64,000 nucleotides of DNA, taken from assembly GCF_000516985.1 (NCBI RefSeq), contig NW_006917096.1, forward strand, positions 3,457,606 to 3,521,605. The letters are read 5' to 3'. The translations under genes and the position numbers were made by a program. Shown piece by piece: positions 3,781 to 57,271 of the stretch (positions within the stretch are counted from its first letter, which is position 1; the number at the start of each line of letters is the position of its first letter). A model generated the notes under the pieces. It was not told the origin of the DNA and did no database searches. It worked only from the letters and a program-made list of their open reading frames with translations. Origin of the DNA: Pestalotiopsis fici W106-1. Taxonomy: Eukaryota > Ascomycota > Sordariomycetes > Amphisphaeriales > Sporocadaceae.

Positions 3781-4312
3781 TCCGTGCAATATTAATTAAA
3801 TTTAAAAAAATCTAATTAATATTAAGGTAAACGCGCGCGTATCGCGATAAAATTTAATAGCGATACAGGCTTCGGTTATTACCGCGATATAAATAAAAGC
3901 TTAAAAAAAATATAATTTAATATTTACGGTTTATAGCTAAAAAAAAAAAGCCGTTATAATTTAATAAATAAAATTTTTAGGTTATAGCGGTAATACAAAA
4001 AAAAAAAAAATTTCCGAAATTTATAGGTAGGATAGGCAGATGTCGGGCAGGCGTAAGCGTATTTGCCGCTAAACCCAAAAGCATTTTGTTACAAACTGAG
4101 CTCTGAACCGTCGTATATAGCACTAAAATACTACCATGTCCCACTCTTTTTTTTTGCAGCACCAATACGGAAGACGGTACTGCCGAGTAGTAGTGCGTGT
4201 TTCTGGGCGTCGGGCCTCTCGCTGAAACTTTGTCTCCCCCTTGTTCTCTTTTCCACATGTTCAAACTCCTCTCACTGAGAAAGTATATTCTGCCCATTCA
4301 AGAGCCATCAAG
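3781..4312. other. Border from AT-rich repeat block to unique DNA; P450 upstream region
   Basis: Bases 3781-4015 are AT-rich and RIP-like, with a few CpG clusters (for example CGCGCGCG near 3833). From about 4016 composition becomes normal. The P450 start codon is only about 300 bases inside the unique DNA, so its promoter abuts the silenced repeat block. No specific regulatory site was recognised. Confidence 0.6.
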
Positions 4313-5956
4313 ATGGCATCGACAAAGTGGGCGCTGGATTACCCCGGAATCAGTGTCGCGGTTGTCTTTTCTTCCTTGATCCTTGGCCTCCTGCTCATCA
4401 GAACCCTCTCTGCTTCTAGCCCCCCAAGCCCGCCAGAGCCTCCCCTGCTAAAGCCTCCACATCCCATCTTTGGCCACCTCCCGGGTCTTTTGCGCCATGG
4501 CATGCTCTACATGGACGTGCTGGCGAGGCAGTACCACGAGCAATTCCCTGAAGGCATCTTTACCGTCTCCTTATTCGGAAAGCACATCTACATTGTGATG
4601 ACCCCGGGGCTCTTGGCACATACTCAGAACAAGTCCCGCCTCGTGTCTGGATGGGAGGTGTTGGCGACTGTTACTGCAAGTTTCACCGGTAGGGGGAGAA
4701 AGTACTACGACCGCTTGGTCAAGAACAGCCAGAGTCGCAAAATTCCCAATTATCACTCCGAGAACCATAAACTCATCTATGGTTCGTTAAACCCTGGTAA
4801 AGAATTGGATCGCATGCGTGTCGCTTTTGTCGACACCTATGTCTCTTTTATCCCTCCACTAGAGACGATTGTGGACAAGTCTGGCAGCTACACTTTTGAT
4901 TTCTACGAATGGCTACGGGAGTCTTTCACCAACGCGTCGGCGAGGCTGGCTTGGGGCAAAGACAACCCGTTCAGCCGCGACCCGACTCTCTGGAAGGCAT
5001 TTACCGAGTTTGACGACAATGCCGGTTTGCTCATGACCAGGCCCTTGCCGCGCATACTTGTAAGAAAGGGCTATCTTGCACGTGAAAGGGCAATTGGGCA
5101 AATCCGCGACTTCATGGCCGAAAGTGATGAGGCCAAGATTCAAGGTTTCGGGCCTCTCATGCGACACACGTCCCATGTTCTGTCCAAGTGGGGTTTCACA
5201 GCAGATGAGTTGGCTTCCAACAACCTGGGCATGATTATTGGGCTGGCTAGTAACACGGCGCCGGCCGCAGCCAATACGCTGATTGCCATTGTTCGCGATC
5301 CGTCGCTGCTGTCTTCTGTTCGGGCCGAGCTGGATGCGCTCGTGCAGCGCAGCGCCGATGGCACGACGGCCACTTTTGACGCTGCCGATATTCGTTCTCA
5401 CTGCCCTCTCTTTGTCTCGGCAGCCTACGAGACGATGCGTCTTACATCTTCGGGATCAACAGCGAGGGTTATTGCGCATGACCCCGACAATGTGTCTTCT
5501 TCTCCCGGCAAATATCACATTCTCACGTCGCCTGACAAGTCCACTTCTTGGAGTCTCAAAAAGGGCGAAATGATGTTTATGGCCGGAGGTCTGATCCATG
5601 GAAACTCGGCACACTATGCCAACCCCACGACTTTTGATGCGACGAGGTACCTCGAGCACTCCATCCCCGAGACCCAGATTCCCGGCCTATTTCGTAGTTT
5701 TGGGGGCGGTGCATCAATCTGCGGAGGGAGATATCTTGCCGTTGCCGAGATCCTGGCTGTTGTGTCTTCGATTATCTTACGATTCGATATCGAAAAGGAT
5801 GGAGGCAGTGGAGGGTGGCAATTGCCAGATAGGCGCGACTGTCCTTCGCATGCTGCTGTAACACCCCCTCCAGGCGGCAAAATGCCAATGACAATCCGGA
5901 GGAGAGCAGGTTGGGAGGGAGTCAGATGGATCAATAGCCATATGAAGGATACATAA
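4313..5956 (+). CDS. Cytochrome P450 monooxygenase
   Basis: A single-exon gene encoding 547 residues. A hydrophobic N-terminal anchor spans about residues 13-31, then a proline-rich hinge (SPPSPPEPPLLKPP), as in microsomal P450s. The K-helix ExxR is ETMR (Glu373-Arg376). The heme loop is FGGGASICGG with the ligand Cys at residue 470 (codon 5720-5722). The ATG at 4313 (context TCAAGATGG) is preferred over an upstream in-frame non-ATG extension from 4241, because the anchor begins shortly after it. Overall it looks like the group of fungal P450s often annotated as prostacyclin synthase or sterol 7-alpha-hydroxylase-like (CYP7/CYP8 style), which is a weak inference. It converges on the TRK gene and lies 6.6 kb from the NRPS, so a tailoring oxidation is possible but unproven. 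The substrate is unknown. Confidence 0.9.
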   Translation: MASTKWALDYPGISVAVVFSSLILGLLLIRTLSASSPPSPPEPPLLKPPHPIFGHLPGLLRHGMLYMDVLARQYHEQFPEGIFTVSLFGKHIYIVMTPGLLAHTQNKSRLVSGWEVLATVTASFTGRGRKYYDRLVKNSQSRKIPNYHSENHKLIYGSLNPGKELDRMRVAFVDTYVSFIPPLETIVDKSGSYTFDFYEWLRESFTNASARLAWGKDNPFSRDPTLWKAFTEFDDNAGLLMTRPLPRILVRKGYLARERAIGQIRDFMAESDEAKIQGFGPLMRHTSHVLSKWGFTADELASNNLGMIIGLASNTAPAAANTLIAIVRDPSLLSSVRAELDALVQRSADGTTATFDAADIRSHCPLFVSAAYETMRLTSSGSTARVIAHDPDNVSSSPGKYHILTSPDKSTSWSLKKGEMMFMAGGLIHGNSAHYANPTTFDATRYLEHSIPETQIPGLFRSFGGGASICGGRYLAVAEILAVVSSIILRFDIEKDGGSGGWQLPDRRDCPSHAAVTPPPGGKMPMTIRRRAGWEGVRWINSHMKDT

Positions 5957-12592: not shown

Positions 12593-15500
12593 ATGGCGAC
12601 ACAACAGACAGCAACTTGGGAAGGACATTACTTTGCTTTCAACGAAAAGCAATCCGATGTCCTAGGTCAGCTGTCCACTCGTTTGGGTGTGCAGGCATCC
12701 CTTTTGTCGGCACTTCGCATCTTGCACTATCGACTTACCGCTTCAGAAGCGGTATATTTGCCAGTCAAACAGCACAATGCAGACGGCACAGCATCTGAAT
12801 CCTTTCTCTCCAACGACATTGACGGGAACTCGAAGATAGCCGATGTTCTTGAACATGCCCAAAACGCCCTGGTGTCTGCGAAAGAGCGGGGACTGAAGCA
12901 GGATGGCCATGACATTCCCGTTACTACTAGTTTCTGCTTTGAGCACTGGGACGAGGACGAGGGTTACAGCGGTGATGCATCTCCCGAGACGTACGATGCC
13001 ATCACATTATGTCATCTCACCGGGTATAAGCTAACCAGTTGATAGTCCCATGGACGCCACCGGTTCTTGGCAATTCCGTGGCACGAGTGGATGCTGTATC
13101 GTTTACAGTCCATCACGACAAAGCCAGCGGGCCGTCGAGTCGCTAGCATTGGACTATGCTGATATACTGGACGCAGTTCTCTTTGACCAAGATAAGATGA
13201 TCTGCAAGGTATCGTTTCACGGCGTTGTTGATCGCCTGCAGCCCCTGGGAGCACTTCGAGCACCCAAGGCTGATCCCGTCCCCGAGAATCTGATTGCCGG
13301 TCTCCAGGACAGCGTTACTCGACACGGGACAGCAGCTGCACTTGTCGACAAGGAAGTTTCCCTGACATATGAAGAGCTCGATGACTTTTCATCTTTCTTG
13401 GCTGCCGACATTCTATCGCGGCGTGGGGAAGAGCATTCCTCGGATCGCTTCATGGCTCTATGCATTCGCCCGAGCGCATTAGCTATTGCGGCAATTGTTG
13501 CAATCCTCAAGACAGGATGTGCCTACGTTCCTCTTGACGTTCGACAGGCGTCCGAACGCACAGTTGGTCTTTTGGAAACAGCGGAAAATCCATGTGTTTT
13601 GGTAACCAAGGATTCTCCCCAATTCCTCCTCCAAGAAGGTTTTCCGGCCCCTGTACTCGACATTACATGCTCGCTGGAGAAATGGAGAACATCTGACCGA
13701 GCCCATCGTGCCCAATTTGTTGTGGCTTCCCCGAGCGTCAATGATATCGCATGTCTGCTGTTCACTTCGGGGACCACTGGCAGACCCAAGGCTGTGAGGA
13801 TCCAGCACAAGAACATCCTGTCACTAGCCACCAACGGTAGTATCCTCCCCATCTACCATGGCGACAATGTTTCCCAGATGACCAATCTGGCATGGGATGT
13901 TCACATGTCCGAGATCTGGGTAACTTTTATCCGAGGCGCTACATTGTACAGCTTCGATCAAGCCGAAGTGCTCGATCCCGTGGCACTGACAGAGCGTGTC
14001 CGTGATTGCAAGATCACAACGACCATTCTTCCGAATGCGCTGGTCCGCCACGTTCTTAACGAGAAGCCCGAGTTTTTCCAGCACATTCAGCACATACTCA
14101 TGGGCGGAGAGATGGCCAGATTCGAGCAGTTCAATAAGATCAGGGCACAAAATCCCAACATCAGTATGATCAACGCTTACGGTCCGACCGAGTGCTGTGT
14201 TGTGGTCACCGCGAATCACATTTTGCCTTCTCACGATATACCTACCGAGGGCAATATCCCAATAGGAGGCGCTCTCGACTCGATGCAGCTCATCATTCTG
14301 GATGACCAGGATCGCCTGGTGCCACCTGGAGTGGTTGGCAACATTTTTATCCGCGGCCAAGGCGTTGCAGATGGCTACCATAAATTAGATACCGCCAGTG
14401 ATGCAGCTTTTGTTCACAAGACACTTCTCGATATCTCTGATCACCCAATCAGATTATATAACTCGGTAGGTTGATATCTCATTCACGCTTCTCGTCACCA
14501 CCAACTAACAAGCTCAAAAGGGTGACAGAGGACGCTGGAACTGGGACGGACAGATTGAGTTCCTGGGACGCAGCAACGCCGACCAGATCAAAGTCCAAGG
14601 TCAACGCCTTGAGCTGCCTGATGTTGAGGCCAACATAACACGTGTTCTCGGAGTGCAAGACGTCGGAGTGGCGTATCACAAGCCCGCGGGCGGGCAAGAC
14701 GGCATTCTAACGGCGTACCTGGTTCCTGACCGAGACTCCGAGCAAGGCGCTGTCGAACTTACATCGGCAGCCCTTACCGTCGCCTCTGTTGATGAAGACC
14801 CGAGCATGTCCCGCGCACAGCTAGATGAGAAGTCTTGGAAATCCGTCCTGGATCTATTACAGTCAGCAATGCCTACTTACATGATACCCGAAGCATTCTA
14901 TCTAGTCCAGCGGGTCCCAGTGACCTTGAACGGAAAGGTGGATCGTAGAGCGTTGGCAAGCATGGCGAATGTTGATCAGCAGGCAAGAAAGAACTCCCAG
15001 GCCATCGTCCACGGTGCCGACACCGACGCTGAAGGCATCGTGTGCCAGCTGTTTGCGTCCATCCTCGGCGGCGGCGTTGCCATCTCTCCCGACACCAACT
15101 TTATGCAGCACGGCGGCAACAGTCTCATGACGACGAAGCTGCGTCATGCGCTACGTGCCCGCTTTGGCGTGACTATCCCAATTGGGAAGATTCTTGAAGC
15201 ACCGACGCCGCGAGAATTAGCCCGAAAGATCAGTCAGTCTCGTCCGGAAACCGAAAAGCCCTCAATACTCGGCCAGGGGTCGCTAGATGCAGGTGAAGCT
15301 TCCGAATTGTCCTTTGCCCAGCACCGAATGTGGTTCCTGGCCCAGCTACACCCCGAGGCTCGCTGGTATCATTGCGAGGTCATGCTCGTCACCAAGTCTC
15401 GATTGAACGAAGACATACTAGACCAGACCTTTGCCGACATCTTTTCCCGGCATGATATCTTGCGCACTGTATATTTCGAGGACAATGGCGTACCGAAAAG

Positions 15501-18500
15501 CAGAGTCACCAACCATACTGCTTCTCTGAGGAAAGTCGATGTCGAAGGCTCCTTTGAAGATGTGCGACAGGTCTGTCATGAGGACTTTATTGCACCTTAC
15601 GACTTCACGAGCTCTCCTCCCGTCAGAGCCCTCTTGGTTCGATGGGGCGACAGGCATGTTGTGATGGTTTCGATGCACCATATCGTACACGATGGTTACT
15701 CTCACAACATCTGGAACCAGGAGTTGATGCAGGTATACAACAGCCTCCACTCTGGCAAATCGTCGCCGCTGGCCCGGCCACTTGTCCAGTATCGAGACTA
15801 TGCCAAGTGGCAACACTCCAGTGAATACAAAAGCCTGGTTGACTCGCAGCTCGAATACTGGATCCCTCATCTTCAAGGAGCGCAGCCCGCGCGATTTGAA
15901 CCAGACTTTACTGAGCTCCCAGAGGGTGCCGATCTCGGTGAGGCTGGCAGCATTGTTCTGCACTGCGGTCAAGAACGCAGAGCCAAGCTGGATGCCGTGA
16001 AGAAATCACTGGGGTCAACGTGGTTTATGTTGCTGTTTGCGGCTTTCAGAGCTGTTCAATTCGAGGTGACGGGGCAGGAAGATGGCATGATTGGCTTCCC
16101 CATTGCCAATCGCCACAAGCCCGAGCTGGTTTCCCTACTGGGATTCTTTGTGAACACGCAGATCCTTCGCCTCAAATGCGCAGTCGGCACCCCATTTTCC
16201 GAGCTCGTGCGACAGGCACGAGATCTCTCGATCAAGGCCTTTGATAACCAAGACGTTTCATTCGATACGCTGGTCAGCATGCTGCGGCCCAACCGCAGCC
16301 CCACGCAGAACCCATTGACTGAAATCATGTTTGCTTATCAAACCATTGAAGAGGGCAAAATCATGATGGGAGACACGGTTGCCGAAAATGGATTCCTCAG
16401 AGCAAAGCTATCGCGATTCGATCTTGAAGTTCAGTGGTATGAGGAGCCCGATGACCTCCGCCTCGAGCTTGTCTACCGAGCCAATGTCTTCAAGTCTTCC
16501 ACTTTTGAAACAATTGGACAAAAGATGTTCGAGTTCCTTGATGCCATAATCATCAATCCCAATCTAGAGCTGGCCACTTCGCGCCCAGAGGTAAGTGAGA
16601 TCCATTAATAAAAGAAGTTCACGCTAACATTTCGCAAGAATTTGCTGGCGAGTCGCCAATCACCAGCCAAAGCATACTGGGATCGTACCCTCGATGGATT
16701 CAATAGCATCAAACTGGCTTTGAGCTCCACACGCCCTGAGAAGCTTGACACAAAGGCACAGAGCTTCGACCTCGAGCTGCCAAGCAGCATTACTCACACG
16801 GTTGAGACTGTTGCTGAAGCACTCGGTATCTCAACGGCAGCTTTGTACACTACTGCATACCTCTTGACAATGGGAATCTACTCGGACCAAGACGATCTTA
16901 TCATTGGCATCCCAAACCTCGGACAAGATCAAGACTCGACAGTCTCTAAAGTACTTCCCTTACGAGTCTTCTTTGGGTGGAACGACTCGCAGCTGAGTCT
17001 CGTCCAAAAGGTCCACGACAGCATTGCTGGCGCTATTGAGCATAGCCAGATTTCCTTCCAAGGCTTGTGCGAAGCGGCTGAGGCTGAGGGGGCCTCAAAT
17101 CGACATGCTCTATTTCAACACGTCTTCAGCCATGACGGTGACACCCATGAGAAGACTTCAGAGTTTCTGCGCAGCAATTGCGCGAACGCCTGTCACGCAT
17201 TCGATCTTGCTGCCTCTATCAAACGACAAGACAGCCAGGCATACATAAGCTTTGCGTACCAAGCGTCCTTGTTCTCTGAAGATGCAATCGTTGGAATGAC
17301 GAGCACTTATGCTCGAGTCTTGAGCCAACTAGTTGATCAGACACGCTTCGACAAGGAACTATGTAGCCTGGTGCTGTCTGACGGTGATCCTGGTATTCGC
17401 TCCGATTCAAGTGCGGAGTCTCTTATCGAGCTATTCGAGTTCTTTGCCAAGTCACGTAGCTCAACTACTGCCGTCGTCTGCGGTGATGAGTCTCTGACAT
17501 TTGAGCAGCTCGATAGACGAGCGACCCGCCTGGCCAGCTATATGAAGGCCAATGGCTTGGGCAAAGGACATTTCATGGCCCTGATGGTGTCACCGACGCT
17601 TGACATGATTGTCTGCATTTTGGCAGCTTGGAAGGTCGGTGCGGCCTATATCCCCGTCTCGCCGAAATGGCCCGGCTTGCGGGTAAAGCATATTCTCAAG
17701 GATTCATCGGCGACGCACTTTGTCACCACGCGAGAGCATGCTGCAGGAAAGCTCGAAGATGAAATCCCAGCTGTTAGCATGGTCTATCTCGATGATCCCA
17801 ATTTTGAAGTTTTGCTAGAGGCCGCGCCATCTGACTTTTCGACGACATTTGTGTCCAGTGACTCCATCTCTCATTGTTTCTACACTTCGGGGACCACTGG
17901 CGTGCCCAAGGGCGTGTTGCTTCGGCACCGTGGAGTGCTGAATCTTCGGCGAGATCTGCAGCCACGTTACTTTGGAGGCTCAGATATGATCCAGAAAGTG
18001 ACAATGATGTCGGACTTTGTTTTCGACTTTTCTATGGAGCAATTCGCGCTCGCATTTCTCTCGGGTAACACCCTCGTCATGTTGCCTGATGGCCCGACAG
18101 GAGACGACAAATTTTACAAATACTTGAGTGGCCAGAAGATCACTTACATGAGCGGAACTCCATCAGTCCTTTCTCGACTCGACCTTTCCAAACTTAGCGA
18201 CTTGCGCATGATGACAGTTTCTGGAGAAATGTTTCTTCCAAACCATTTCGAACGCATCAGGACAGGATTTCACGGCCCCATCAACAACTCATCAGCACCA
18301 ACGGAGTGTTCCATCTACAACCTACTTCATCGGTTTGAGGCTGACGATCCTTTCATCAACTGTCTTGGGCGTCCAATTGCTAACCACCAGGTCTATCTGC
18401 TGAGCGAGGCACTACAGCCGGTGCCCCAAGGTGCTCCTGGAGAGCTTTTCATTGCTGGACCTGGCGTTAGTGCTGGCTATCTCAACCTGCCGGAACAGAC

Positions 18501-21246
18501 CGAGAAGAAGTTCTTGCCGAATCCATTTGTCCAAGCACAAGAGTCGCCAATGTATGCAACCATGTATCGGACAGGCGACAAGATGCGCCAGCTAGCGGAT
18601 GGCAGAATCCAGCCCATGGGTCGTCGGGATGATCAAGTCAAGCTCCGCGGCATCCGAATTGAGCTGAGTGAGATTCAACAAGTCATGGCCACGTGCCCTG
18701 ACATTGTCGAATGCGCAGTAGTGCCCAAATTCAAGGGTGAGGACAAGACTGGAAACGTTGATTTCCTCGTCGGATACTATACTACAAGCTCGGAGAGCCT
18801 CAGCGAGGGCGACATCAAAACATTTCTCGAGAAGCGCTTGCCTCCGGCGTACGTTCCAAGCCGTGTCGTTCTAGTCCCTGGGCGCCTGCCAACCACCATT
18901 CAGGGGAAGCTGGATCTTCGCCGCTTACCCGAAGTTGAGAAATTGTCCGAGGAGGTGCCCCGAGAAGCTGCACGCAACGCAACCGAGGCTGAGCTCTGCC
19001 GCATATGGGGCGCGTTGCTCGGTAATGAGGTAGGTATCCACGACAATTTCTTCGACGCTGGAGGAGACAGCATCATGTCGATCCAACTCATTCACGATAT
19101 GAGTCGTGCTGGGATCCACGTTACAGTCAAAGATCTCTTTGCCCACCCCACCGTGGCCCGTATTGCAGAATTCGCCGCCAAAAAGTCAACCAGAAAGGTG
19201 AAAAAGATCGAGGCTGAACAAGGCCTGCTCACTGGGGCATTGCCGCTGAGCCCCGTTCAGCAATGGTTTTTCAACAAGCAGTTCACTAAGCAGGACCACT
19301 TTAACCAAAGTTTCATCATTCACACTCCACGCCTGGAGGGCGAGACGCTCAACAAAGCCTGGATCGCGCTTCAGGAACGCCATGACGCCCTGAGGCTCTC
19401 GTTTGAATTTGGGAACGGCACGATAACCCAGAAGTATCAACAAGAATCAGCAAACCCAAATTTACTGGTGTTCGAGGACAATGACTCGAAACTAGCGGCT
19501 AAACTTGACAGGCTGCAGTGTTCGCTGAGTCTCGCAGATGGGCGCGTTGCAGTGATGGCATACATTGCATCTACAAACTCGGAAACTGATACTGTATGGA
19601 TGGCTCTACACCATCTCGTCACTGATGTGGTGAGCTGGCGTATCATGACTCGGGACTTGCAGAGTCTATACAATGGAAAGAGTCTTTCGGCCAAGTCAAG
19701 CAGTCTTCGACAGTGGAACACGGCACTTCAGCAGTATTCTCCGACCATGGCAGAAGAAGCGTACTGGCGAGAGGTGCACGAGATTTGCCAGCAGGAAGTG
19801 CTTGATGCTGAAAACAATGAGCTGAGTGGTGCCTCCATCCAGCTCTCGGAGGTGAATACCAAGCTTCTGTCGCGTTCCGGTCCCAGAGTGCTCGGCAGCA
19901 GCACCTTGGCAATCCTCCTCACGAGCGTCAGCCGTGCTCTCACTTCATGGCACGGGTCTAATCTGCCCGTCACCCTCGAAGGTATCGGTCGTCAGGATCT
20001 CTCGTCCACCTTGGACGTAAACAATACGGTTGGGTGGTTTACGACCATGTACCCATTTGTGGCGCCGACCACTGAAGACCTTGCTTCGCACGTGTCGGTA
20101 GTCACTAGAGCCATCAAAGATGTGCCTCGCAAAGGTTTCGGTTACGGAATCTTGCACGGATACGACAATATCCCGGGCGTCACTTTCAACTACCTTGGCC
20201 AAGTCGAGAACCACGCCGTGGCTGGGAATGCATGGCGGCTGGGAGCGACTTCGGGCTCGCAATGGGGAAGGAACTTTGCTGAAGAAGACAGCCACTTGGT
20301 GGCCGGTTCCCTGACTTTGACCGCCAGGATCGAGAACCGGGTCTTGCATTTCGATATTGCCGGCTTTGTCGGTGATGAGCGTGCCCAATTTTTGCAGCAA
20401 GCTATCTCGTATGCTCTTGATGAGATCGTGGATCTTATCCTGGAGAAGGTTACTGCATTGGACAATGGAGTCCAGGTATTGACAGAGGAAAATGACATGG
20501 TTGAGGAAGAGAAAGCCGGGGAGCCAACTGCGGCCGACAAATTCATTCCTTTCTTCCACTTTGACGAAGCCCCACGCCAAGGGCCAACGGTCTTCTTGCT
20601 GCCGCCCGGCGATGGCGGTGCCGAGTCCTACTTCAACAACATCGTCGCACAACTTGACGAGCCAAGACTCGTGACATTCAACAACTATCCCCTAGCACAC
20701 CCAGAGGCAGCCGCCGAGGAGACTTTTGAGACGCTGGCGCAACGCTACATAGGCTGGCTGCGTGAGATTCAACCTCAAGGGCCTTACCACCTCTTCGGCT
20801 GGTGCTTTGGGGGCGTTCTAGCCTTTGAAATCTGTCGCCAGCTGACCGAGGCCGGTGAGACAGTCGCTTCGCTCTCTCTGGTGAATTCATTCCTCAATCT
20901 TCAGCACAACGCTCGTGCAAGCGGTCTGGACGAGGAGAGCACCATCAGCAAGCTAGGCATGCATCCCATCAACTGGAGGTATCAGCCGGCGCCCATGGAT
21001 CCTCAAATTCTGCAGGATCGTTTGGGACACGTCAATTTGTTCAAGGCCGGTGCGTTCCATGACCCAGATCGAGAGCACTTGGGCATCCACGATCTTTACA
21101 AGGACATTCCGCTGAATGGTCTGGATGCTTTCTTGCCTCCATCGAAGATTGACAAGGTCGTCATGGATGGTAAGACACATTACAGTTGGATCAAGGACAA
21201 GAAAACCGTTGGGACCATCGTAGACATTATTCGGAGCTGTTTGTAA
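12593..21246 (+). CDS. Bimodular nonribosomal peptide synthetase, (C*)-A-T-C-A-T-E-TE
   Basis: Proposed exons are 12593-12990, 13046-14465, 14521-16590 and 16639-21246 (about 2831 residues). Introns 2 and 3 (55 and 48 bp) are secure; intron 1 is uncertain (see findings). Order: a short N-terminal piece resembling the end of a condensation domain (about 1-200); A1 (FTSGTTGRPKAV near 370, NAYGPTE near 508, NGKVDR); T1 (HGGNS, Ser about 807); C1 with HHIVHDG near 992; A2 (FYTSGTTG near 1711, SAPTECS, YRTGD, GKLDLR); T2 (AGGDS, Ser about 2107); an epimerization domain (PLSPVQQWFF, HHLVTDVVSW, EGIGRQ...VGWFT, NYLGQ); and a terminal thioesterase with GWCFGG. It would activate two residues, join them, epimerize the second and release the product. 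Tentative eyeballed pocket codes are DVSILGAVVK (A1) and DFESTSSIYK (A2); no substrate is inferred. The gene is divergent from the rhodopsin-fold gene and has a purine-rich 3' flank. Confidence 0.92.
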
Positions 21247-23789: not shown

Positions 23790-26700
23790 ATGGACGTCGC
23801 CGACAGAGACCCGGACCCTCGATCAGGTCCTACACACCACCACAAAGCGTCATTTCCGCCGAGATATCGCCCACATCACCAACGGCGCCCAGACGAGCAT
23901 GCTCGAGATGTTGTCATGAATCGCAGCGACGAACAACAAAGAGATCGGGGCCGGTCTGAACGCGAGCCTCGAGCTCCGCACGAAAGTGCACACGATAGGA
24001 CACGCTCCATCTCTCCAGCCCCGAGGCGACCAGGTGCCTTCCGGGACCGTGATTTTCCACGCGACGGGTGGCGCGACGATTTTCGTGACAGAGACGACAT
24101 ACCCAAAGGCCCCCGCCACAGGTCGCGTTCCCCAGGCTCGCCCAGCAAGAGGCGAAGAAGCCCCAGTCCCGGACCACACCGCAGCCTCAAGAAGTCAAAG
24201 CGCGAGAGGGAGCGGGAGAAGCGACGGGCGAGAAGAGCCCGCCATCGGAATTCATCTGCCCATCGACGGTCTCGCTCACCATACGACGGCTATCATCGTT
24301 CGGACAGGCCTGGTCCCTCGGGCGGGCAGCACACAGAACGACGCAGCCAGTCGCCTCACTTTTCCCGTCAGGCTGGCGCCGAGAGGGGCACATCACCCTA
24401 TGCACGATCCCGCCGGAACTCGTTGACGAGTAATCGTGACCGTGACCGTGACCGATCACCGAGAGCGGAATCTCGTCATTCGCAAATGTCTCGTGCTCAT
24501 TCCCCCCTCCCACCTAATCACTCTGAGGCGGGTTCGTACTCCCGTCGCTCAACTTCTCCAACGCACGAGCCTGCCGCCTTTCACCGCCCACCTCGCTCTC
24601 CGCGAATGGACCGACCGCCTCCGACAGGACCATCGGCTTCTCGCAAGAAGAAACGTCGAGATAGGGAAGATCCTCGCAGTGGCAAGCGAGGAGGACAGCC
24701 TTCATCCGGGGCTAATAGTATCGAGGTGAACACAAGTCGAAGAGGCGATCCACGGGGTGGTTTTGGTTCACAACCTCCGCCTTTCGCCTCGAGACGTGAG
24801 CCGCGTCGTAGTCAATCGCCACCATACAATGCCTTTGATACCTCCCGTCACGGTTCGCCAGATCCTCGGTCACCCCGTAGCCCATCAGGCCAGACGGATA
24901 GACGGAGCTATGAGCATCCATCGCCCCGAGATGCACCATCAGGTCCTCGGCAGGCCAATTTATCACCACTCCAACCCCCAACAGGTCCTTCCCAAGCTGG
25001 ACGCGGTTTCTCGAGAAGCGGCTTCCGAGGTGGCAGCTTCAGCTCAGCACGTTCTGAAAGCCGAGGCAGTTTCAATCCACCATCAGGTCCTGCTGCTGGC
25101 AGGACAAACAACAATCACTCTGACGAAACCACGCCTGAGCCATCCTCGGCAATAATCCATTCGGTTTTTGCAGGAAATGTCAAGACTGACAACCTCGATG
25201 AAAATTACAATGTTCAAAGTAGAGAATTGCACAACGACGACTCCCAAGCAGATGAGAATGACAGAGAACAGGAACCTCAGAGCCAACCAGTTGCACCAGG
25301 CCCACCGGCTACTACACCCACTGGGCCCAGGATAAGCTTCTCGCTTAAGGCAACTTCAAAGGCCCCTGTTACTGCCCCCAAACCGGAGATCTCCCAGAAG
25401 TTTAGCGCACCTGCTCCGAGGAGAGATCCGCAACCGGTAGATGATCGAAGTAACAGAGATCGCGATCTCCCCAAAGATACGCCGACAGGGCCATCGTCGT
25501 CTAGAGCACGACATGAACCTGATCATCATAGTAGACACCGGGCACCTGAACCTCCGAGGGGCCCACGGCAGCCCGAGTCATCGCGGGGTCCACGACATCC
25601 CGAGCCCTCCAGAGGCCCACGAGAGCATGATCCTGCCAGAGGCCCGCGACATCCTGAGCCCCCTAGGGGTCCTCGGCAGCCGCGTATGCGAAAAGTCAAG
25701 AAGATTGAACGGCGGCTGAAGCCCAAGCCAAGGCTTCCCGAAAACCTGGCCAAGTCCGAGTCCCCATTTTTCAGAAAGCCTGGCAACGAGTCAGTAGTGG
25801 GATCTGGTACTTATGGCAAGGTGTTCAAAGGAAAACATGTTTACACTGGAAGGCTCGTCGCCTTGAAAAAGATACGGATGGAAGGCGAGAAAGATGGATT
25901 CCCAGTCACGGCAGTGCGCGAGATCAAGCTGCTGCAATCATTACGTCATGACAATATTGTCGCTTTACAGGAGGTCATGATCGAGAAGGATGCCTGCTAT
26001 ATGGTATTTGAGTATCTTTCTCACGATTTGACCGGTCTTCTGAACCATCCGTCTTTTATTCTGGATGCAGCTCAGAAAAAGCACCTCGCCAAGCAACTTT
26101 TTGATGGTTTAGACTACTTGCACGCCCGAGGGGTTCTGCATCGAGACATCAAGGCTGCGAATATCCTTGTGAGCAGCGACGGAATACTAAAGCTTGCGGA
26201 TTTCGGTCTGGCGCGATTCTACACGAAACATCACCGGAACGACTACACAAACCGTGTCATCACGATATGGTACAGATCTCCAGAGCTACTGCTAGGCGAA
26301 ACCCAGTACACTGCAGCTGTTGATGTTTGGAGCGCAGCATGTGTTATGGTCGAGATCTTTACGCGCCATGCCATCTTTCCCGGCGACGGAACGGAAATCA
26401 ACCAGCTCGACCGGATATATGCCATCATGGGTACGCCCAACAAGTCGGAGTGGCCTGACCTCACCAAGATGGAGTGGTTCGAGCTTCTCCGACCTGGGTA
26501 TCGCAAGCCTAGTGTTTTTGCTGAAAGGTACAAGGAAAAAGTACCAGTCGCGGCATTCGATCTCTTGGCCTCCATGTTCCAATACGATCCAGCCAAGAGA
26601 CCATCTGCCGCTGAGGTTTTGGCACATCCTTATTTCACTTCGGAGATGCCTCCGCCACGACAAGCCGTCGAGTAAGTTGCACGAATCAAACAAACTTGCG

Positions 26701-26988
26701 AAACACACACTAACCATTTTTAGACTCGCCGATATTCAAGGCGAATGGCACGAGTTCGAGTCCAAGGCACTCCGTAAGGAAAAGGAAAAGAAGGAGCGCC
26801 AGGAACGTCAGGAGCGAGAGGCTCGGCGCGCGGCGCAGGCCAAAGAGGCAGCCAAATCTGAGCGCGATGCTATACCGCGAGACAATGAGAGGAAGCGGCC
26901 GGTCCCGTCGCCAGACAATCGGGATACTAAGAGGCTTCATGTGGAAGAGCAACCATCATCTTCAGACAAACCGGCAGACGTTGCATAG
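23790..26988 (+). CDS. CTK1: Cyclin-dependent CTD kinase, Ctk1/Lsk1 (CDK12-like)
   Basis: Two exons (23790-26671, 26724-26988) join across a 52-bp intron (GTAAGT...TTTTTAG) to give 1048 residues. The first 650 or so residues are a low-complexity Arg/Ser/Pro-rich region with RSRSP-like and RGPRxPEP repeats, as in CDK12/13-type kinases. The kinase domain (about 665-950) has GSGTYGKVF, the cyclin-binding helix PVTAVRE, HRDIKAANIL, DFGLA, the threonine of the activation loop in DYTNRVITIWYRSPE, and GTEINQLDRIYAIMGTP. The basic coiled tail after the intron (KEKEKKERQERQERE) is typical of fungal Ctk1. The family acts with a cyclin K-type partner to phosphorylate Ser2 of the RNA polymerase II CTD during elongation. 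The cyclin-binding helix and extended RS region favour Ctk1 over Bur1/CDK9. It converges on the snoRNA host gene. Confidence 0.85.
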
Positions 26989-27340
26989 TTTTATGCCTTT
27001 GGCCAATCAGACTCTGAAGAGTGATGTAGACGACTAGGCCTTCTAGGTGTTGACATGTAATGGCAAGCGAGTTGTATGCTTGATAGACCAAAAGTGATAT
27101 ACCATAATATTATGACACGCTGATCCCTGGCCATATCTATCACATGGTACATTGCCCAAGTCTCGCATGTCAATTATCGTATGCATCCTTGCTGGCATGG
27201 TAGCTAAATATGTTTTATGCTCTTTCGATTTTGGTTGGGCTATCTGCGCGTTCACTGTTCTACGGTTTCATCTGTTCATGAAAACTGTCAGCAACAGAAC
27301 AAGTCTGGGGTATCCAATTGCCTTTGGGTGTCAACGGGAA

Positions 27341-27411
27341 ACGCTCAGTACAACAATGACAATAGGCCTCAGCGGCATGGCCTCAGAATACGAAAGTACT
27401 CATCACAGCGA
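27341..27411 (-). ncRNA. Box C/D snoRNA 9 (host intron 9)
   Basis: Box C is GTGATGA (27406-27400), box D is CTGA (27348-27345) and a D'-like CTGA lies at about 27386-27383. The ends pair as CGC...GCG. It is the shortest of the nine, with 62 bases from box C to box D. Box D lies 73 nt before the proposed acceptor. The guide next to box D corresponds to a target reading TACAACAATGAC; no rRNA site was assigned. Confidence 0.78.
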
Positions 27412-27600
27412 TAGATCCGGATAGTTTGAAAGGGAATGACAAATAGAATATGTATCTTACTTTTTAACGTAGAGCTTTACTCACTGCACGGCCGAGACAA
27501 GGTGATGCTGCCGCCAGTCCCAGATTCATCTATTTTTTGAAACGTCAGCCACCGAATAGGATCAAAGCAACCAGACGTTTGGAATGAGATGAATTTTCGA

Positions 27601-27684
27601 GTGCTCAGTGTGGGTGCAAGTTGATAGTCATCAGCAGCGTCATTGACGCCAACTTCAAACTCCGCGCATTGGTCATCATGGCAA
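27601..27684 (-). ncRNA. Box C/D snoRNA 8 (host intron 8)
   Basis: Box C is ATGATGA (27679-27673), box C' is CTGATGA (27634-27628) and box D is CTGA (27608-27605). D' is degenerate. A short TGC/GCA terminal stem is possible. Box D lies 75 nt before the 3' splice site. The box D guide would match a target reading TGTGGGTGCAAGTTG; the target is not assigned. Confidence 0.82.
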
Positions 27685-27878
27685 GGGTAAACGGATAGAG
27701 ATTTCTATGCGTCAAGTGGAGCAAACCAAATGAAGAATCAAGCTTACCATGTGCCCCCAAGAAATCGTGTCGAATCGTCTGACGACTACTCCGCCCCAAG
27801 TTCTCCTGTTTTGTGCCAAATGTTAGCTACCAGCATATGATTGATGCAATGCGATTTGGGAGTGGAAATAGATTTCAA

Positions 27879-27968
27879 GTGCTCAGTCCGAGTATACTGT
27901 TGTAGGTCATCATCAAAGTGTCACAAGGCACCGCCTCTCTGAATCCCATTTCTCTGTCATCATGGCCA
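27879..27968 (-). ncRNA. Box C/D snoRNA 7 (host intron 7)
   Basis: Box C is ATGATGA (27963-27957), a C'-like TGATGATGA lies near 27915-27907 and box D is CTGA (27886-27883). The box D to acceptor distance is 77 nt. The guide adjacent to box D would match TCCGAGTATACTG; the target is unassigned. Confidence 0.82.
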
Positions 27969-28225
27969 ATGTAAATGGATGTGGGGTAGTTTCCATATAT
28001 ATACACAAATGAAGGGAAGAAAAGAAAGGATATTGATGAGCTTACCAAGCATCTAGGATGACCTTTTGTTTTTTCCTTTTTTTGTTTTTTTTTTGTTTTT
28101 TTTTGTCAAATTATCCGTTTGGGTGTTTAACCAATAACCGAATCTAATTCCTCATGTGTCAAAGTGTCAGCTGCCAGAGGTCATAACGAAATCAAATCCG
28201 ATTTGGTGCAAGGTTGGGAATGCGG

Positions 28226-28307
28226 CTTCTCAGTACACGGTTGCATATGTCTATCAGCAGCAGTGCCCATATGGGTTTACTTCAAAGTAGGTTTTTCATC
28301 ATCGCCA
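28226..28307 (-). ncRNA. Box C/D snoRNA 6 (host intron 6)
   Basis: Box C is ATGATGA (28302-28296) and box D is CTGA (28233-28230). C' is weak (CTGATAG near 28256-28250). The box D guide would match TACACGGTTGCATATG. Its first eight bases (TACACGG plus the flank) are shared with snoRNA 4, suggesting related guides. Confidence 0.78.
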
Positions 28308-28504
28308 GGGTATATATGTAAGAATTGGAAAGGGACAAGAGGATAGCTTACCACGTGCCTAGATAATGGCTCGAGCTGAAAGGGAGGTTCATGCTGTATT
28401 TTGAAGACTGGCGGACTAGGTTTATCTGTTATCAAAGGAGCCAATGTTAGCTTTCTTGAATGACAAGGCAACAGCTTGTGGTCTGCAGCAATCAATATTT
28501 GTCG

Positions 28505-28593
28505 TGGCTCAGAAGAATTCCCAGATCATCAGCAAGTAGCGCGGTGTGCGCTCCTTTGATCAGCAAGCTCAGCAGGTCAGGTCATCACAGCCC
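28505..28593 (-). ncRNA. Box C/D snoRNA 5 (host intron 5)
   Basis: Box C is GTGATGA (28588-28582), D' is CTGA (28572-28569), C' is CTGATGA (28532-28526) and box D is CTGA (28512-28509). A GGC/GCC terminal stem brackets C and D. An internal hairpin AGCGC...GCGCT lies between D' and C'. Its body resembles snoRNA 4 and its box D guide resembles snoRNA 3. Confidence 0.87.
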
Positions 28594-28840
28594 AAATAAT
28601 GTGGTCATCTTTGAAAAGAGAAAAGAAAACAAGTAAAGAATGTGTGAGCTTACCGCAACGGATATTGGCAAGTCCTTTGAGAAGCGATTCTTTGAGCCTT
28701 CTTGTCGTTGGGAGGTTGCGGATGCTTGGTATGCTCGGGAGAAGGGATCATATCGGCGGCTGGTTATCTGTGAAGAAGGCTTAATTTGTTAGCTTCTGCC
28801 TCCTATAACAAAGCTTGAGTAAACCGTCAATGGAGGGTCA

Positions 28841-28931
28841 TGGCTCAGTACACGGATGAGCATATTTTGTCAGCAAATAGCGCGTCGTGCGCTTCTTTCA
28901 GCAGACCAAACAAACCAGTTCATCACAGCCA
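28841..28931 (-). ncRNA. Box C/D snoRNA 4 (host intron 4)
   Basis: Box C is GTGATGA (28926-28920), D' is CTGA (28901-28898) and box D is CTGA (28848-28845). The terminal stem is TGGC/GCCA. Its 5' half and internal GC hairpin are similar to snoRNA 5, so the two are probably duplicates with diverged guides. The box D guide would match TACACGGATGAGC. Confidence 0.86.
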
Positions 28932-29171
28932 GATTATTTGTCTTTGTCCTAAAACAATAGGAAGAAAGATGTAAACTTACTGTGGCTAGTATCTGCGGTT
29001 CTCTTGCGCAATCTTTTGTCGTCTTGTTTTCATTATTAGGGTGGCTAGAGAGGCATGATACACTCTCAGGGAGGAATTCGGCAGGCTCGTTCGTCTGTGA
29101 AAAGAAAAGTCTCGTTTGTTAGCTACTTCATGGCATGACAAAGATTTAATTGAATAATGAGTAGATGTTGG

Positions 29172-29261
29172 TGGCTCAGAAGAATTGCCAAAATAAATCA
29201 CAGGCACTGCTGTAATAGTGCGTTCTCATTCCTCATCTGATGTATCTGATCATCATGGCTA
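29172..29261 (-). ncRNA. Box C/D snoRNA 3 (host intron 3)
   Basis: Box C is ATGATGA (29256-29250) and box D is CTGA (29179-29176), 81 nt before the acceptor. The guide adjacent to box D would match AAGAATTGCCA, which differs by one base from the corresponding guide of snoRNA 5. C' and D' are weak. Confidence 0.8.
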
Positions 29262-29468
29262 GAAAGACGGGTGGTCTACGTGGATGGGGGAAGAGGAAAC
29301 CTTTCCTACCATGCCTTGAATTTGTTTGCTGAGTGGTTACAGGCGGAGTTTCTTTGATTGCGGGTTGGTGAAACAAGCCTCGGGCGACGCGAGATTGTCC
29401 TGTTGTAGTCGAATGTTAGTTATCTGAATACGACAAAGGTATAAACTGGTTTAGGGCACTATATCCTG

Positions 29469-29551
29469 AGGCTCAGAGAAAATAGGTAATCAATAAAGCT
29501 CGGTCTAGTGAGCAGTTTCATTCCAATCACCACTGTTCGTCATCATAGCCA
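29469..29551 (-). ncRNA. Box C/D snoRNA 2 (host intron 2)
   Basis: Box C is ATGATGA (29546-29540) and box D is CTGA (29476-29473), with a GGC/GCC terminal stem. Box D is 73 nt before the 3' splice site. The box D guide would match AGAAAATAGGTAATC; the target is unassigned. Confidence 0.82.
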
Positions 29552-29733
29552 AAGACGTGATGTTTGTCGTTGAGAGAAGTTGCGAAAAGCGTGATCAAAC
29601 TTACCATTAGTTGTGGCCGACGATCGTTGAAATTATTGTTACGATGTGGTATGATAACAGCATGCTTGCCTGGCTTGTCCATTGTTAGTGGATGGTTGAA
29701 AGAAAGTATCAAGTCTTGAATGATGTTTGTTGG

Positions 29734-29821
29734 AAGCTCAGTTCAAGGAACACAGTGTTCAGTCAGCGGTTGTGCGCGGGGCGCAACCTCAAGAATACAC
29801 AAGCACTGCTCATCATGGCCA
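29734..29821 (-). ncRNA. Box C/D snoRNA 1 (host intron 1)
   Basis: Box C is ATGATGA (29816-29810), D'-like CTGA motifs lie at 29766-29759 and box D is CTGA (29741-29738). A two-base GC stem is possible at the ends. It is the first snoRNA in transcription order. Box D is about 68 nt from the preferred acceptor. Confidence 0.8.
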
Positions 29822-30068
29822 GGCACGAAGACAATCGTGCAGAATGAGGAGAATGGATGGACTTACCACGCGATGTGCATATGTTCAAGATGCTTTGTCA
29901 AAAGGACTGAATCACATATCAAGTAAATGTAAGAGTAGTCGGCGAGGTATATGGTCAAGGTCTGGTAATAGAACAAGTGTTGATAAAGGGAATGGGAATG
30001 GGAATGGAAGAGGTGTGTGGTGAAAGAATGTTTGGAAAGATTAAAGATGTATGGAACTCTGCCTGGAC

Positions 30069-30200: not shown

Positions 30201-30243
30201 GAGGGCGGCGGCTAGTATTACTGCCCAGGCAGCCGCCGCCCTC
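30201..30243. repeat. Perfect 13-bp GC-rich inverted repeat
   Basis: GAGGGCGGCGGCT (30201-30213) and its exact complement AGCCGCCGCCCTC (30231-30243) flank a 17-base spacer. The surrounding 30110-30300 is the most GC-rich non-coding stretch in this part of the window and lies about 130 bp upstream of the proposed TATA box. It could be a protein-binding palindrome or a hairpin. Confidence 0.75.
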
Positions 30244-53705: not shown

Positions 53706-56700
53706 ATGGAAGCTGCAGAAGGTTCCAATGATGTCGTGCACCCAGAAGTCAGAGCACACATCAACAGTCTCGTTTCTGCTGTAAGTGGCCAGGTCCCATG
53801 GCGCAATAGACCATGTGAAAGCTAATTGGGACCTCTCAGCTTGGTGGATTCAGTGCTGAAGATGACGGACGATACGTGATGGGAGACTCCGCCCTGGAGG
53901 TTCTCCGCGACATCAAGAAATGGATCCGATTCTACGACGAGAAAACAAACCGCATGGATGTTGCGCGATGCTTGGCCGAGGCGAACCTGATAGAGGGCGA
54001 TTTGCTGCATATACTTGCCTCTTGGCCCGAGGCGGCTACCGATAACAAGTTCAAGGCAAGAGCTGCGCTGGCCTGCTACGAGTTGATGGTGCCCCTGACC
54101 TGGCCGCTGGAGCGCAACCTCGAAGAGATGACCGTCAACCACCACCGGCATCTTCCCGTACTGCAGCTGGCTCAGGTTAGCTACAAGCGCGCCATCATCA
54201 ACTTTGATGCTGCACAGATTCTGCACACGGCTGTTCGTGTGGCTCTGCCATCCATGGCGCTGCCGAAGAACGACCGAACTACACGAGACGAGGGTATCAT
54301 CAAGCTAGTCCTATTGTTCTTGCGCAACATTGCCATGATTGCACCTCCGCCAGGTGTCAAGTACGACGGAGACGAGTCGCAGATCTCCAGGTCGGCCTTG
54401 ATTGATGCATTCTCTTACCAGGACATTCTGCTTACGATCCTGACGTTGGCATCTAACATGGGCGACGATTTCAACCACGAAGGTGTTATCCTTATGGAAA
54501 TAATCTTCCATCTGGTGAAGAGAGTCGACATCAACAAGCTGTTCATGGACGACAAGCAGTTGAGCAAGGCGAAGGCAAACGAGTTGACAACGCTGATGAG
54601 TAAGGAGGCGGCAATGCATCGACCACACAACCGCAAAGCGCCGACTAGACATAATCGCTGGGGAACCATGCTCTGGGTCCAGCGAGACGACGGCAAAATG
54701 TCTACCGTTTCTGGGCAGGATGCTCTATTCGATGCCGCTACGAGACAAGAGAAGATGGACAGCAGCAAGACGTTCCGGCCGCCCAGGAGGCCAAGGAAAG
54801 AGGAGATGGAGCCCAAGGACCTTGGACCGTCGGTCTCATTGAATGCAAGGGCACGAGAACAGCTCCGGAGCTTTGTGGAAGAATTTCTAGATTCTGGATT
54901 CAATCCACTTTTCCTAAATGTGCGCAAGAAGCTGGACGACCGCAAAGACTATGTTCTGGAATACCACCATCGTCAATTTTTCTACCTCACGTCATGGTTC
55001 CTAGAAGCTGAGCGGACACGACAAAAGGCAGCAAAAGGCAAGAGGACAAGCCAAGATGATGTTGGTAGCTTCAACTTGGTTGCCACCGTGCTGAACCAGG
55101 AAATGTTCATCACCTTGAACAGAGCCATGCAAGAATCTCTCGACAATAGAAATTGGCAGGAGCTGACTGCAGCCATGAGGTGCTTTACACAAATCCTGCT
55201 CACTGTGCAGGACATGAGTGAGACTGGCAATGAGGCAGATGAGGAGATTGCCGAGAACATACTCAGTCGAATCTTCTACGAGGAAGAAACTCATGAACGA
55301 GTGGCAGCGGTTGTGAGAAATTTCAAGGATCAGGGTTTCGAGTACCTCGATGCTTGTACGGAATTAGCACACACATACCTGCGCATCCTGGAGTCGTACT
55401 CAAAGCAGAATGTCGATATGCAGGTGCGGTCTCGCAAAAGGGTGAGGAAGAAGAAGGCTGCCAACAAGGATGGCGGTGATGAGAGCAACCCAGTAGAGGA
55501 AGACGATGATTCCGAGAATGACGAGGCCAACGCCGAAAAGACGACCAAGGAACGAAAATTCAACTTCAACAAGTGGGCTGACAAGTTTATCCCACAACCG
55601 GTTGTCGACACTTTTGTCAAGTTTACAAGATACTACCAAGACTTGAATGATGCCCAACTCAAGCGTGCACACCGATACTTCTATCGCATAGCTTTCAAGC
55701 AGGACTGGGCCGTCATGCTTTTCAGGGTGGACATTATTCACCTATTTTACGGCATGATCAAAGGCCAAGAGCCTTTGGACAGAAGCTGCAGCAGCTACAA
55801 GGAGTGGGAAGAGCTTGTAAAGCAGATTTTGAAGAAATGCATCCGCAAGATTGACGAAAGGCCAGCCTTGATTATTGAGATGTTATTCTCCAAAATCAAT
55901 GCTACAGCACACTATCTGCAGTTTGGCTATGAGAAGCAGACGATACCGTCTTCAACACCAAAGCCCGCAGCCGAGTTGGAGTTTCGCCACGAAGTCGAGC
56001 ATGAACGGAAAGTGGCAATTGCTGTGGGTGCATTGCTGGACAAAGAGATGGCACACCACATCAAGTGGGTGAGAGACCAACTCAGCGCCGCGGAAACCGA
56101 AAGGAGGGCCTGGGGGACGGCGGAGAAGGCGTTGCAATCTGTCGAACCACCTGCTGCAGATAATGCAGAGCAACCCGAAGGAGCTGCTGCCCAAAAGGAG
56201 GCATCCGACATCTTTGTTCGTCCTGATGACGATGCTCGCCGGGTGGCAATGTTCAAAAATCCACACCTTCGCCTTCTCATGAAATTGGTCGGGTTTGAGC
56301 GTCTTGCGCCATCCGTGGACGAGACACCCGAGTCGGCTTGGATTATTCCCGCCGCTCTTACCGCAGATCAACTCAAAGAGTCTTTGGACCTGGTCAGTAA
56401 AGCCGAGTTTGATCCGCCGACATTCGAAGAGGGTAAGCTGGCGGAAGATCAACTTCGCAGAAAGACTGCACCGCGTGCCCCTCGAAAGAAGGCAGTATTT
56501 GACGACGACGAAAGCGGCATTGATGATGATGAGATCCTTTTCCCCGCTGGTGGTCCCACTGTGCGTCCGGCAGACCACAGCGATGCAGATAAGCCGAAAA
56601 AGACTCGACGCAGACGCGAGAAGAAGGAAATCACGGAAGAAGAGAGGGAAGACAGGGCGCGGAAACGTCGCCAGAGGGAGAAGGAAAAGGCACGCCGCTT

Positions 56701-57271
56701 CAAGTCTGACGTCTATGTTCACGCCAGCGACGACGAAACAGACGAGGAGCGCGACCGAGAGTTCTTTGCTAAGGAAGCAGAGTTGCGTAAGAAGCAAAAG
56801 TCCCTCGCAAAAAGCGCGGCAGTGACTGTGCTACCCCCGAGTCCGAGATTGGGCGCGGCGAAACGCAAGATTGCCGAGTTACTAGAGTCGGACGACAGCA
56901 GCAGCGACAGCGACAGCGGCGATGAGGATGAGCTAGGAGATAGAACGAAAGGCCCAAAGTCGACACAAGACTCGACTACTAGTCGCCTCCGAGACACTAC
57001 CTTGGTCGATGAGGATGATGAGGATGAGGACAGCCAAGACAATGACGACGGCGATGATGATGACGACACGCCTCCCTCGTCCAGCCCTCACGCTGGCTCC
57101 ACAGGCAGCAGAAATGCCAACAAGCGGCGGCGGCTCTCCAAAGAGCCCAGCTCCGCTCCCGACCAAGAGATGGTGGACGCGGATGAGGATGAGGACGCAC
57201 CAAAGCCGGCAGCCCGCCGAAGACCCCGGGCCAAGGCCGGCTTCATTATAGATAGCAGTGACGAGGAGTAA
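53706..57271 (+). CDS. TOF1: Replication fork protection protein Tof1/Swi1 (Timeless family)
   Basis: Exon 1 (53706-53780) encodes [20 protein letters not shown]... and is joined across a 59-bp intron (53781-53839; GTAAGT...CTCAG) to a 3432-bp exon, giving 1168 residues. The Timeless N-terminal domain occupies roughly the first 280 residues ([20 protein letters not shown], then [13 protein letters not shown] and [13 protein letters not shown]). A helical middle region follows ([25 protein letters not shown] block). The C-terminus is highly charged, with acidic and serine runs interspersed with basic patches. The family pairs with Csm3/Swi3 to stabilise stalled forks, promote checkpoint signalling and support fork pausing. 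The length fits fungal Tof1/Swi1. The upstream intron restores the conserved start; starting at a codon inside exon 2 would lose it. Confidence 0.92.

Follow-up and report, generated by a model that had tools for sequence, protein, structure and literature searches.

The window analyzed here, the whole of a 64,000-nt stretch of DNA from Pestalotiopsis fici W106-1 (contig NW_006917096.1, positions 3,457,606–3,521,605), carries on its minus strand a locus in which nine sets of splice signals bracket nine pairs of box C and box D motifs. The locus is read here as a polymerase II-transcribed, non-protein-coding host gene of the UHG/GAS5 kind, and it is highly probable, from the arrangement of these signals, that it yields nine box C/D small nucleolar RNAs (snoRNAs), one per intron. 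The putative host gene and its predicted units, in window coordinates, are as follows.

27180..30030, minus strand: non-coding snoRNA host gene (predicted), ten modeled exons and nine introns, both outer ends assumed
29733..29821, minus strand: unit 1, predicted box C/D snoRNA in intron 1 (29866-29670)
29468..29551, minus strand: unit 2, predicted box C/D snoRNA in intron 2 (29604-29400)
29171..29261, minus strand: unit 3, predicted box C/D snoRNA in intron 3 (29309-29095; donor GTAGGA)
28840..28931, minus strand: unit 4, predicted box C/D snoRNA in intron 4 (28980-28768), probable paralogue of unit 5
28504..28593, minus strand: unit 5, predicted box C/D snoRNA in intron 5 (28653-28426)
28225..28307, minus strand: unit 6, predicted box C/D snoRNA in intron 6 (28351-28144)
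27878..27968, minus strand: unit 7, predicted box C/D snoRNA in intron 7 (28045-27806), with flanks like those of unit 8
27600..27684, minus strand: unit 8, predicted box C/D snoRNA in intron 8 (27747-27530)
27340..27411, minus strand: unit 9, predicted box C/D snoRNA in intron 9 (27484-27272; donor GTGAGT)

Host Gene Model

Donor, branch and acceptor signals recur nine times on the minus strand from about 30030 to 27180, one set per snoRNA unit, and the statement of an earlier note on this DNA that there are nine such sets is borne out: they bracket the nine units one to one, so that all nine modeled introns (9/9) hold a single predicted snoRNA. The modeled introns measure 197–240 nt and the ten exons 45–164 nt, which gives a spliced RNA of 914 nt with the outer ends assumed. 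The branch motif is RCTRAC in all nine introns, and two donors are atypical (GTAGGA in intron 3; GTGAGT in intron 9, with another GT 4 nt beyond). A TATA-like AAGTATAAGT was seen by eye, and the start of the gene was placed downstream of it, where the sequence is rich in C and T. A DNA search of the assembly with the locus as query found no second copy.

The same note had seen no coding potential here, and this holds as well: the longest open reading frame (ORF) of the modeled spliced RNA, 101 amino acids across exons 3–6, is equalled in 106 of 1000 shuffles, and one word-based search of 5.8 billion proteins returned no protein candidate for the locus. ARAGORN found no transfer RNAs (tRNAs) in the window. 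Splice signals, boxes, a branch spacing of about 50 nt (described below) and the absence of a coding signal together support the dedicated non-coding C/D host that had been proposed.

Several further features of the locus were observed. The assumed 5′ end (29980-30030) is CT-rich with CATTCC repeats and resembles the terminal oligopyrimidine (TOP) start with which mammalian snoRNA hosts begin; fungal genes often have CT-rich starts. About 170–210 bp upstream of this assumed start, at 30201-30243, lies a perfect 13-bp GC-rich inverted repeat (GAGGGCGGCGGCT / AGCCGCCGCCCTC, arms 17 nt apart), possibly a promoter element. Exon 7 contains, at 28064-28100, an A-rich tract on the minus strand (A runs broken by C and G) that is odd for an internal exon. 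The usual exon end at a donor is AG; in six of the nine exon ends here (29867, 29605, 29310, 28352, 28046, and 27748) the GT donor is preceded by TG.

Sequence and Statistical Support of the Box C/D Units

The units share the form GCn-RTGATGA-(51-71 nt)-CTGA. Box C starts, for units 1–9, at 29816, 29546, 29256, 28926, 28588, 28302, 27963, 27679, and 27406, and box D begins 75, 70, 77, 78, 76, 69, 77, 71, and 58 nt downstream of it; where a unit holds further CTGA words, the far-end CTGA followed by GC or GA was taken as box D. Both boxes are perfect in every unit (9/9), and predicted lengths, counting five bases outside each box, are 72–92 nt. The earlier description of one RTGATGA and one CTGA in every intron, 62–82 nt from the start of C to the end of D, is therefore confirmed for all nine. 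In an alignment of the units the box letters are invariant and the bodies diverged. D′-like 4-mers (at most one mismatch) occur in every unit and C′-like words were seen by eye; a second ATGATGA in intron 7, at 27913, is probably an internal C′. Short terminal stems, which the note had reported for several units, amount to 2–4 bp in eight of the nine, with a single base pair in unit 6, and they are not specific to their units.

Boxes so arranged far exceed chance expectation. In the 2.85-kb region there are nine C…D pairs, against a mean of 0.117 and a maximum of three in 1000 dinucleotide-preserving shuffles, and nine of the stricter GCn…CTGAG form, against 0.001 in 1000 shuffles, the flanking GC having been chosen after inspection of the units. 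The pattern GCYRTGATGAN{40,70}CTGAGC, which does not capture units 4 and 6, has ten matches in the 51.7-Mb genome, seven of them at this locus, and two in a reversed control. In the Infernal comparison with Rfam that the note had proposed as a check, no family reached the gathering threshold in the window; at E values up to 5, five below-threshold matches fell around the locus, of which those on units 1 and 7 were to C/D families.

Spacing to the Branch Site

When the snoRNA 3′ end is defined as five bases past box D, its distance to the branch A is 47, 51, 51, 50, 56, 57, 54, 54, and 51 nt in units 1–9. The standard deviation of this distance is 3.2, vs. 12.1 for the distance on the donor side. 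According to PMC8162545, box C/D assembly, aided by AQR/IBP160, is optimal when the branch point lies about 50 nt downstream. In seven control units elsewhere in the genome (see below) box D lies 49–57 nt from the branch motif, under a pattern that restricted this distance to 38–62 nt.

Repeats among Exon-Intron Modules

The interval from one box C start to the next is 270, 290, 330, 338, 286, 339, 284, and 273 bp. When the bodies were compared in all 36 pairs, units 4 and 5 aligned at z 11.6 and units 4 and 6 at z 4.7, each matched by none of 200 shuffles, while all remaining pairs stayed at z 3.5 or below; the alignment of exons 4 and 5 likewise scores higher than that of shuffled sequence (z 4.1). 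Near repeats extend across modules: units 4 and 5 share 33 nt (73%), the flanks of units 7 and 8 share 25 nt (84%, including box C) and 32 nt (72%, including box D), the D ends of units 3 and 5 share 20 nt (95%) and those of units 4 and 6 share 15 nt (93%), and exon ends with their donors are alike in exons 6 and 8 (15 nt, 93%) and exons 6 and 7 (18 nt, 78%).

The alignment of units 4 and 5 and the repeats shared between modules make it probable that exon-intron modules of 270–339 bp were duplicated in tandem as the array grew, with the guides diverging later; outside units 4 and 5 the support for duplication is modest. Repeat-induced point mutation (RIP) is said to detect linked duplicates from about 400 bp (PMC2780460), and every module here is shorter than that; that module length below RIP detection mattered for the growth of the array is a conjecture.

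Pairing of the Guides with Ribosomal RNA

The species' own ribosomal DNA (rDNA) was not found in the assembly, one 25S and one 18S query having come back empty, an outcome that carries little evidence; L009 1501-1548, 48 bases that are 90% alike to 5.8S ribosomal RNA (rRNA) with no further rDNA around them by eye, is a stray fragment. A working copy of yeast rRNA (lengths 1800, 3396, 158, and 121, all correct) therefore served as surrogate target, joined in the strict scan by working copies of a Sordariomycete 18S and of 0.6 kb of 28S. The yeast sequences were compared with seven eukaryotic rDNA stretches, found with a universal large-subunit (LSU) pattern among viral and prokaryote contigs, to which they are 77–98% identical; these checks overlap 18S up to position 786, 25S from position 2270, and 5S, and what speaks for the remainder of 18S and 25S and for 5.8S is agreement with modification positions. 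A fungal LSU pattern found no fungal rDNA among the viral and prokaryote contigs, nor did an 18S pattern among the viral contigs. The small nuclear RNA (snRNA) targets scanned were working copies of human and yeast sequences and the genome's own U4.

In a strict scan (unbroken duplex, at most one GU pair, within two bases of D or a D′-like box), the best duplexes of the nine units with the surrogate rRNA measure 8, 9, 9, 9, 9, 10, 10, 10, and 11 bp. Shuffled bodies (n = 180) give best duplexes of 7–13 bp, with at least 10 bp in 36 and at least 11 bp in 11, so that four of nine units vs. 36 of 180 shuffles reach 10 bp with at most one GU; the units are slightly above the shuffles (mean 9.44 vs. 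8.72, one-sided Mann-Whitney p 0.014). Sites listed for Neurospora crassa are absent from the four best matches of each unit. There are near misses. Unit 3 D pairs over 8 bp at yeast 18S 1230, which local offset puts one base from N. crassa 18S-1227. Unit 8 D (9 bp, yeast 25S 685) falls within the offset range of N. crassa 26S-667, with G for the tabulated U, and unit 3 D (8 bp, yeast 25S 1936) within that of N. crassa 26S-1907, with A for the tabulated G. The D-guide of unit 6 pairs over 11 bp (1 GU) at position 342 of the surrogate Sordariomycete 18S, and only there.

A looser scan of 19 guides against yeast rRNA admitted more GU pairs and one mismatch, with 40 shuffles for each guide. Its best match is that of the unit 4 D′-guide (15 bp, 5 GU; 0/40 shuffles), and the D-guide of unit 5 forms 12 bp (2 GU) with yeast 18S at A1577 (4/40 shuffles), a site absent from the N. 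crassa table; the other 17 of the 19 guides are equalled by 9 to 38 of their 40 shuffles. Three candidate pairings were considered and set aside. Identity of the unit 5 target with the human SNORD82 site was dropped, since that site would fall near yeast 1614 and not 1577 (by arithmetic from the C1639/C1703 offset); a match of unit 8 D′ to human U4 was dropped, the genome's U4 differing there and giving no match of at least 7 bp; and pairing of the CCGTGTA end of units 4 and 6 with the genome's U4 (7 bp, 1 GU) was taken as chance.

A positive control was sought in the same genome. Exact guide words for cluster I gave no match for snR74 or snR77 and 11 for snR75, and at none of those 11 loci did an RTGATGA…CTGA span the match; the control was therefore taken from a genome search for TGATGA…CTGA…GCTAAC, which makes no use of rRNA. 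This search gave 23 matches, four in the locus and 19 elsewhere (reversed control, 18). Eight of the 19 carry duplexes of 11–14 bp, and seven of these eight place the nucleotide at D/D′+5 on a listed N. crassa site. In yeast numbering, with the N. crassa equivalent in brackets, the sites are 25S U2729 (26S-Um2687), 18S G1126 (18S-Gm1122), 18S A162 (18S-Am159), 18S U1269 (18S-Um1265), 25S A817 (26S-Am797), 18S G1428 (18S-Gm1423), and 25S U2410 (26S-Um2372); by local offsets the nucleotide letters agree at all seven. The seven controls lie far above shuffled bodies (p 3e-6); as they were selected by their rRNA match, they establish that the scan works and not how many real guides it misses. The 12 of the 23 matches that are neither in this locus nor on a listed site are probably mostly chance; among these, L035 forms a duplex of 11 bp outside the listed sites. 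Two of the controls, L031 and L032 (contig C1, 1308298-1308849, at 1.308 Mb), are neighboring predicted C/D snoRNAs about 50 nt upstream of GCTAAC whose guides match 25S U2729 and 18S G1126, the snR51 and snR41 sites, and they are probably the conserved cluster III of this genome.

Neighboring Genes

On the opposite strand and convergent with the host gene lies a CTK1-like cyclin-dependent kinase gene (23790-26988), whose last exon, judged by eye, ends near 26988, some 0.2 kb away from where the host gene is assumed to end. The closest relative of the kinase, from Neopestalotiopsis clavispora, is 90% identical, and the next include a Seiridium protein (75%) and one of a Pestalotiopsis (84% over 72% of the length). 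Farther away, neighboring frames at 13050-21246 resemble a non-ribosomal peptide synthetase in their AMP-binding, PP-binding, condensation, and thioesterase domains, a frame for a cytochrome P450 stands at 4241-5956, further off from these frames, and a frame at 53876-57271 has the Pfam TIMELESS domain, as in Tof1-type proteins.

Discussion

If the locus works as its signals suggest, polymerase II would make one transcript that is spliced nine times, and the spliceosome would help Snu13, Nop58, Nop56, and fibrillarin assemble on the C/D boxes about 50 nt upstream of each branch site. By analogy with known pathways, the lariat would then be debranched and trimmed to a ribonucleoprotein with an RNA of 70–90 nt, whose sequence before D or D′ could guide 2′-O-methylation; the spliced exons would be a by-product. 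The locus is invisible to Rfam thresholds, yet it probably makes nine stable RNAs. To the earlier note, the present analysis adds the probable internal duplication of modules and the weakness of the rRNA guides.

Several results weigh against this picture of a snoRNA host. The lack of any Rfam family at the gathering threshold is one. The D′–C′ stretches are not significantly more stable than shuffled ones (z −1.6 to 0.5), and the terminal stems are short and scarcely better within units (2.67 bp) than between units (2.51 bp). The rule of about 50 nt was derived from mammals, and in humans most expressed C/D snoRNAs are at least 100 nt from the branch site according to PMC10234308. As to growth by duplication, the repeats other than that of units 4 and 5 are short and in several cases take in box or splice letters, the other pairs stay below z 5 among the 36 tried, and short two-copy repeat families are frequently due to chance. 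Finally, guides that pair this weakly with rRNA would tell against all nine directing rRNA methylation.

Two explanations that dispense with functional snoRNAs can be set beside the host gene. A conventional protein-coding gene, with nine short introns and boxes present by coincidence, is extremely improbable: it could claim the 101-amino-acid ORF running through four exons, but 106 of 1000 shuffles have an ORF of that length, the protein search gave no candidate, and the density and spacing of the boxes would go unexplained. A decayed array of snoRNA pseudogenes would account for guides without a clear rRNA match; against it, RTGATGA and CTGA are perfect in all nine units and the splice signals are kept in all nine introns, which makes decay very unlikely.

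The choice that carries more weight lies inside the host-gene reading. Weak matches to a surrogate imply either many orphans or targets where the rRNA departs from that of yeast, and the latter is somewhat likelier. We lean, by a little, toward nine ordinary rRNA guides whose targets either lie where the rRNAs of yeast and of this fungus differ or are reached through short duplexes. PMC2780460 reports that 31 of the 71 sites in N. crassa are new relative to two yeasts; the nine units exceed their shuffles slightly, unit 6 gains its 11-bp match only in the Sordariomycete 18S, and on yeast rRNA there are the 12-bp match of unit 5 and the 15-bp match of unit 4 D′. This interpretation has to accommodate the lack of a match to any N. 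crassa-table site and the fact that the unit 5 match is not among the matches listed for the surrogate Sordariomycete 18S. In the other sub-case, a tentative possibility, the host is the same and most of its snoRNAs are orphans, acting on other RNAs or by other means, as a lineage-specific expansion. The best duplexes (8–11 bp) fall in the range of shuffled bodies, 17 of the 19 looser guides are readily equalled by shuffles, and the four best matches of each unit are all off the N. crassa-table sites, whereas eight of 19 other units in the genome reach 11–14 bp by the identical strict scan, seven of them on such sites. The slight excess of the nine over shuffles counts in the opposite direction, and on its account the orphan sub-case was lowered from a somewhat higher estimate, itself short of even. 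It is further weakened by the use of a surrogate in place of the species' own rRNA, by controls that, having been picked by their rRNA match, show only that the scan works, by a search for other targets confined to snRNAs (working copies of human and yeast sequences and the genome's U4), and by the observation that human C/D snoRNAs close to the branch site are likelier to target rRNA (PMC10234308).

A more specific proposal, a lineage-specific factory of orphan C/D snoRNAs that act on non-rRNA targets and that grew by tandem duplication of the 270–339-bp modules, is speculative and on balance unlikely. If it were true, intronic modules below about 400 bp would be a route by which snoRNAs multiply and are retargeted despite genome defense by RIP; more generally, modules of these lengths suggest a testable way in which snoRNA genes could multiply in fungi whose duplicated DNA is mutated. 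If the nine are instead rRNA guides, a lineage for which no map was found would gain up to nine or more methylation sites.

The host-gene layout itself has precedents. In N. crassa, six C/D clusters, five of them conserved with yeast, have non-coding, spliced, UHG-like hosts (PMC2780460), clusters I–III are described across fungi (PMC3596301), and the introns of human GAS5 carry ten C/D snoRNAs (PMC10743478); the regularity that led the earlier note to call the array notable is real, and since N. crassa hosts and GAS5 are in print, its layout is already known. Among literature titles on fungal snoRNAs and host genes, and on snoRNA with Pestalotiopsis, no such host appeared; a relative of the locus may be in print. 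The locus would thus be a further member of a known layout, and the more interesting question is what its nine guides pair with.

The closest likeness is to N. crassa clusters I–V, which also belong to a filamentous ascomycete and have non-coding spliced hosts with mostly intronic C/D snoRNAs; the distance from the 5′ splice site to the snoRNA is mainly 41–60 nt there and 44–77 nt here (PMC2780460). Those clusters guide conserved rRNA sites (cluster I, snR78-77-76-75-74-73-72; cluster III, snR41-70-51), a guide content that the four best matches of each unit to the surrogate rRNA do not reproduce; unlike them, the present host has probable internal duplications and nine predicted snoRNAs, none matching a listed site on that surrogate. 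Nine is also more than in any fungal cluster for which the available text of PMC2780460 and PMC3596301 names the members. The cluster III-like locus L031/L032 resembles the array in its branch spacing and differs in that its guides match the snR51 and snR41 sites. The GAS5/U22 host gene (SNHG) type shares the non-coding host with intronic C/D snoRNAs. The GAS5 snoRNAs are taken as rRNA guides, and mammalian SNHG transcripts have a TOP start; the assumed start here is CT-rich. The mammalian orphan arrays SNORD115/116 consist of tandem host modules without clear rRNA guides, a likeness that would apply if most of the present snoRNAs are orphans; here the nine units are diverged and sit near the branch site. 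In that event the locus would be a fungal counterpart of the mammalian orphan C/D arrays, in organisms that allow the host gene to be deleted.

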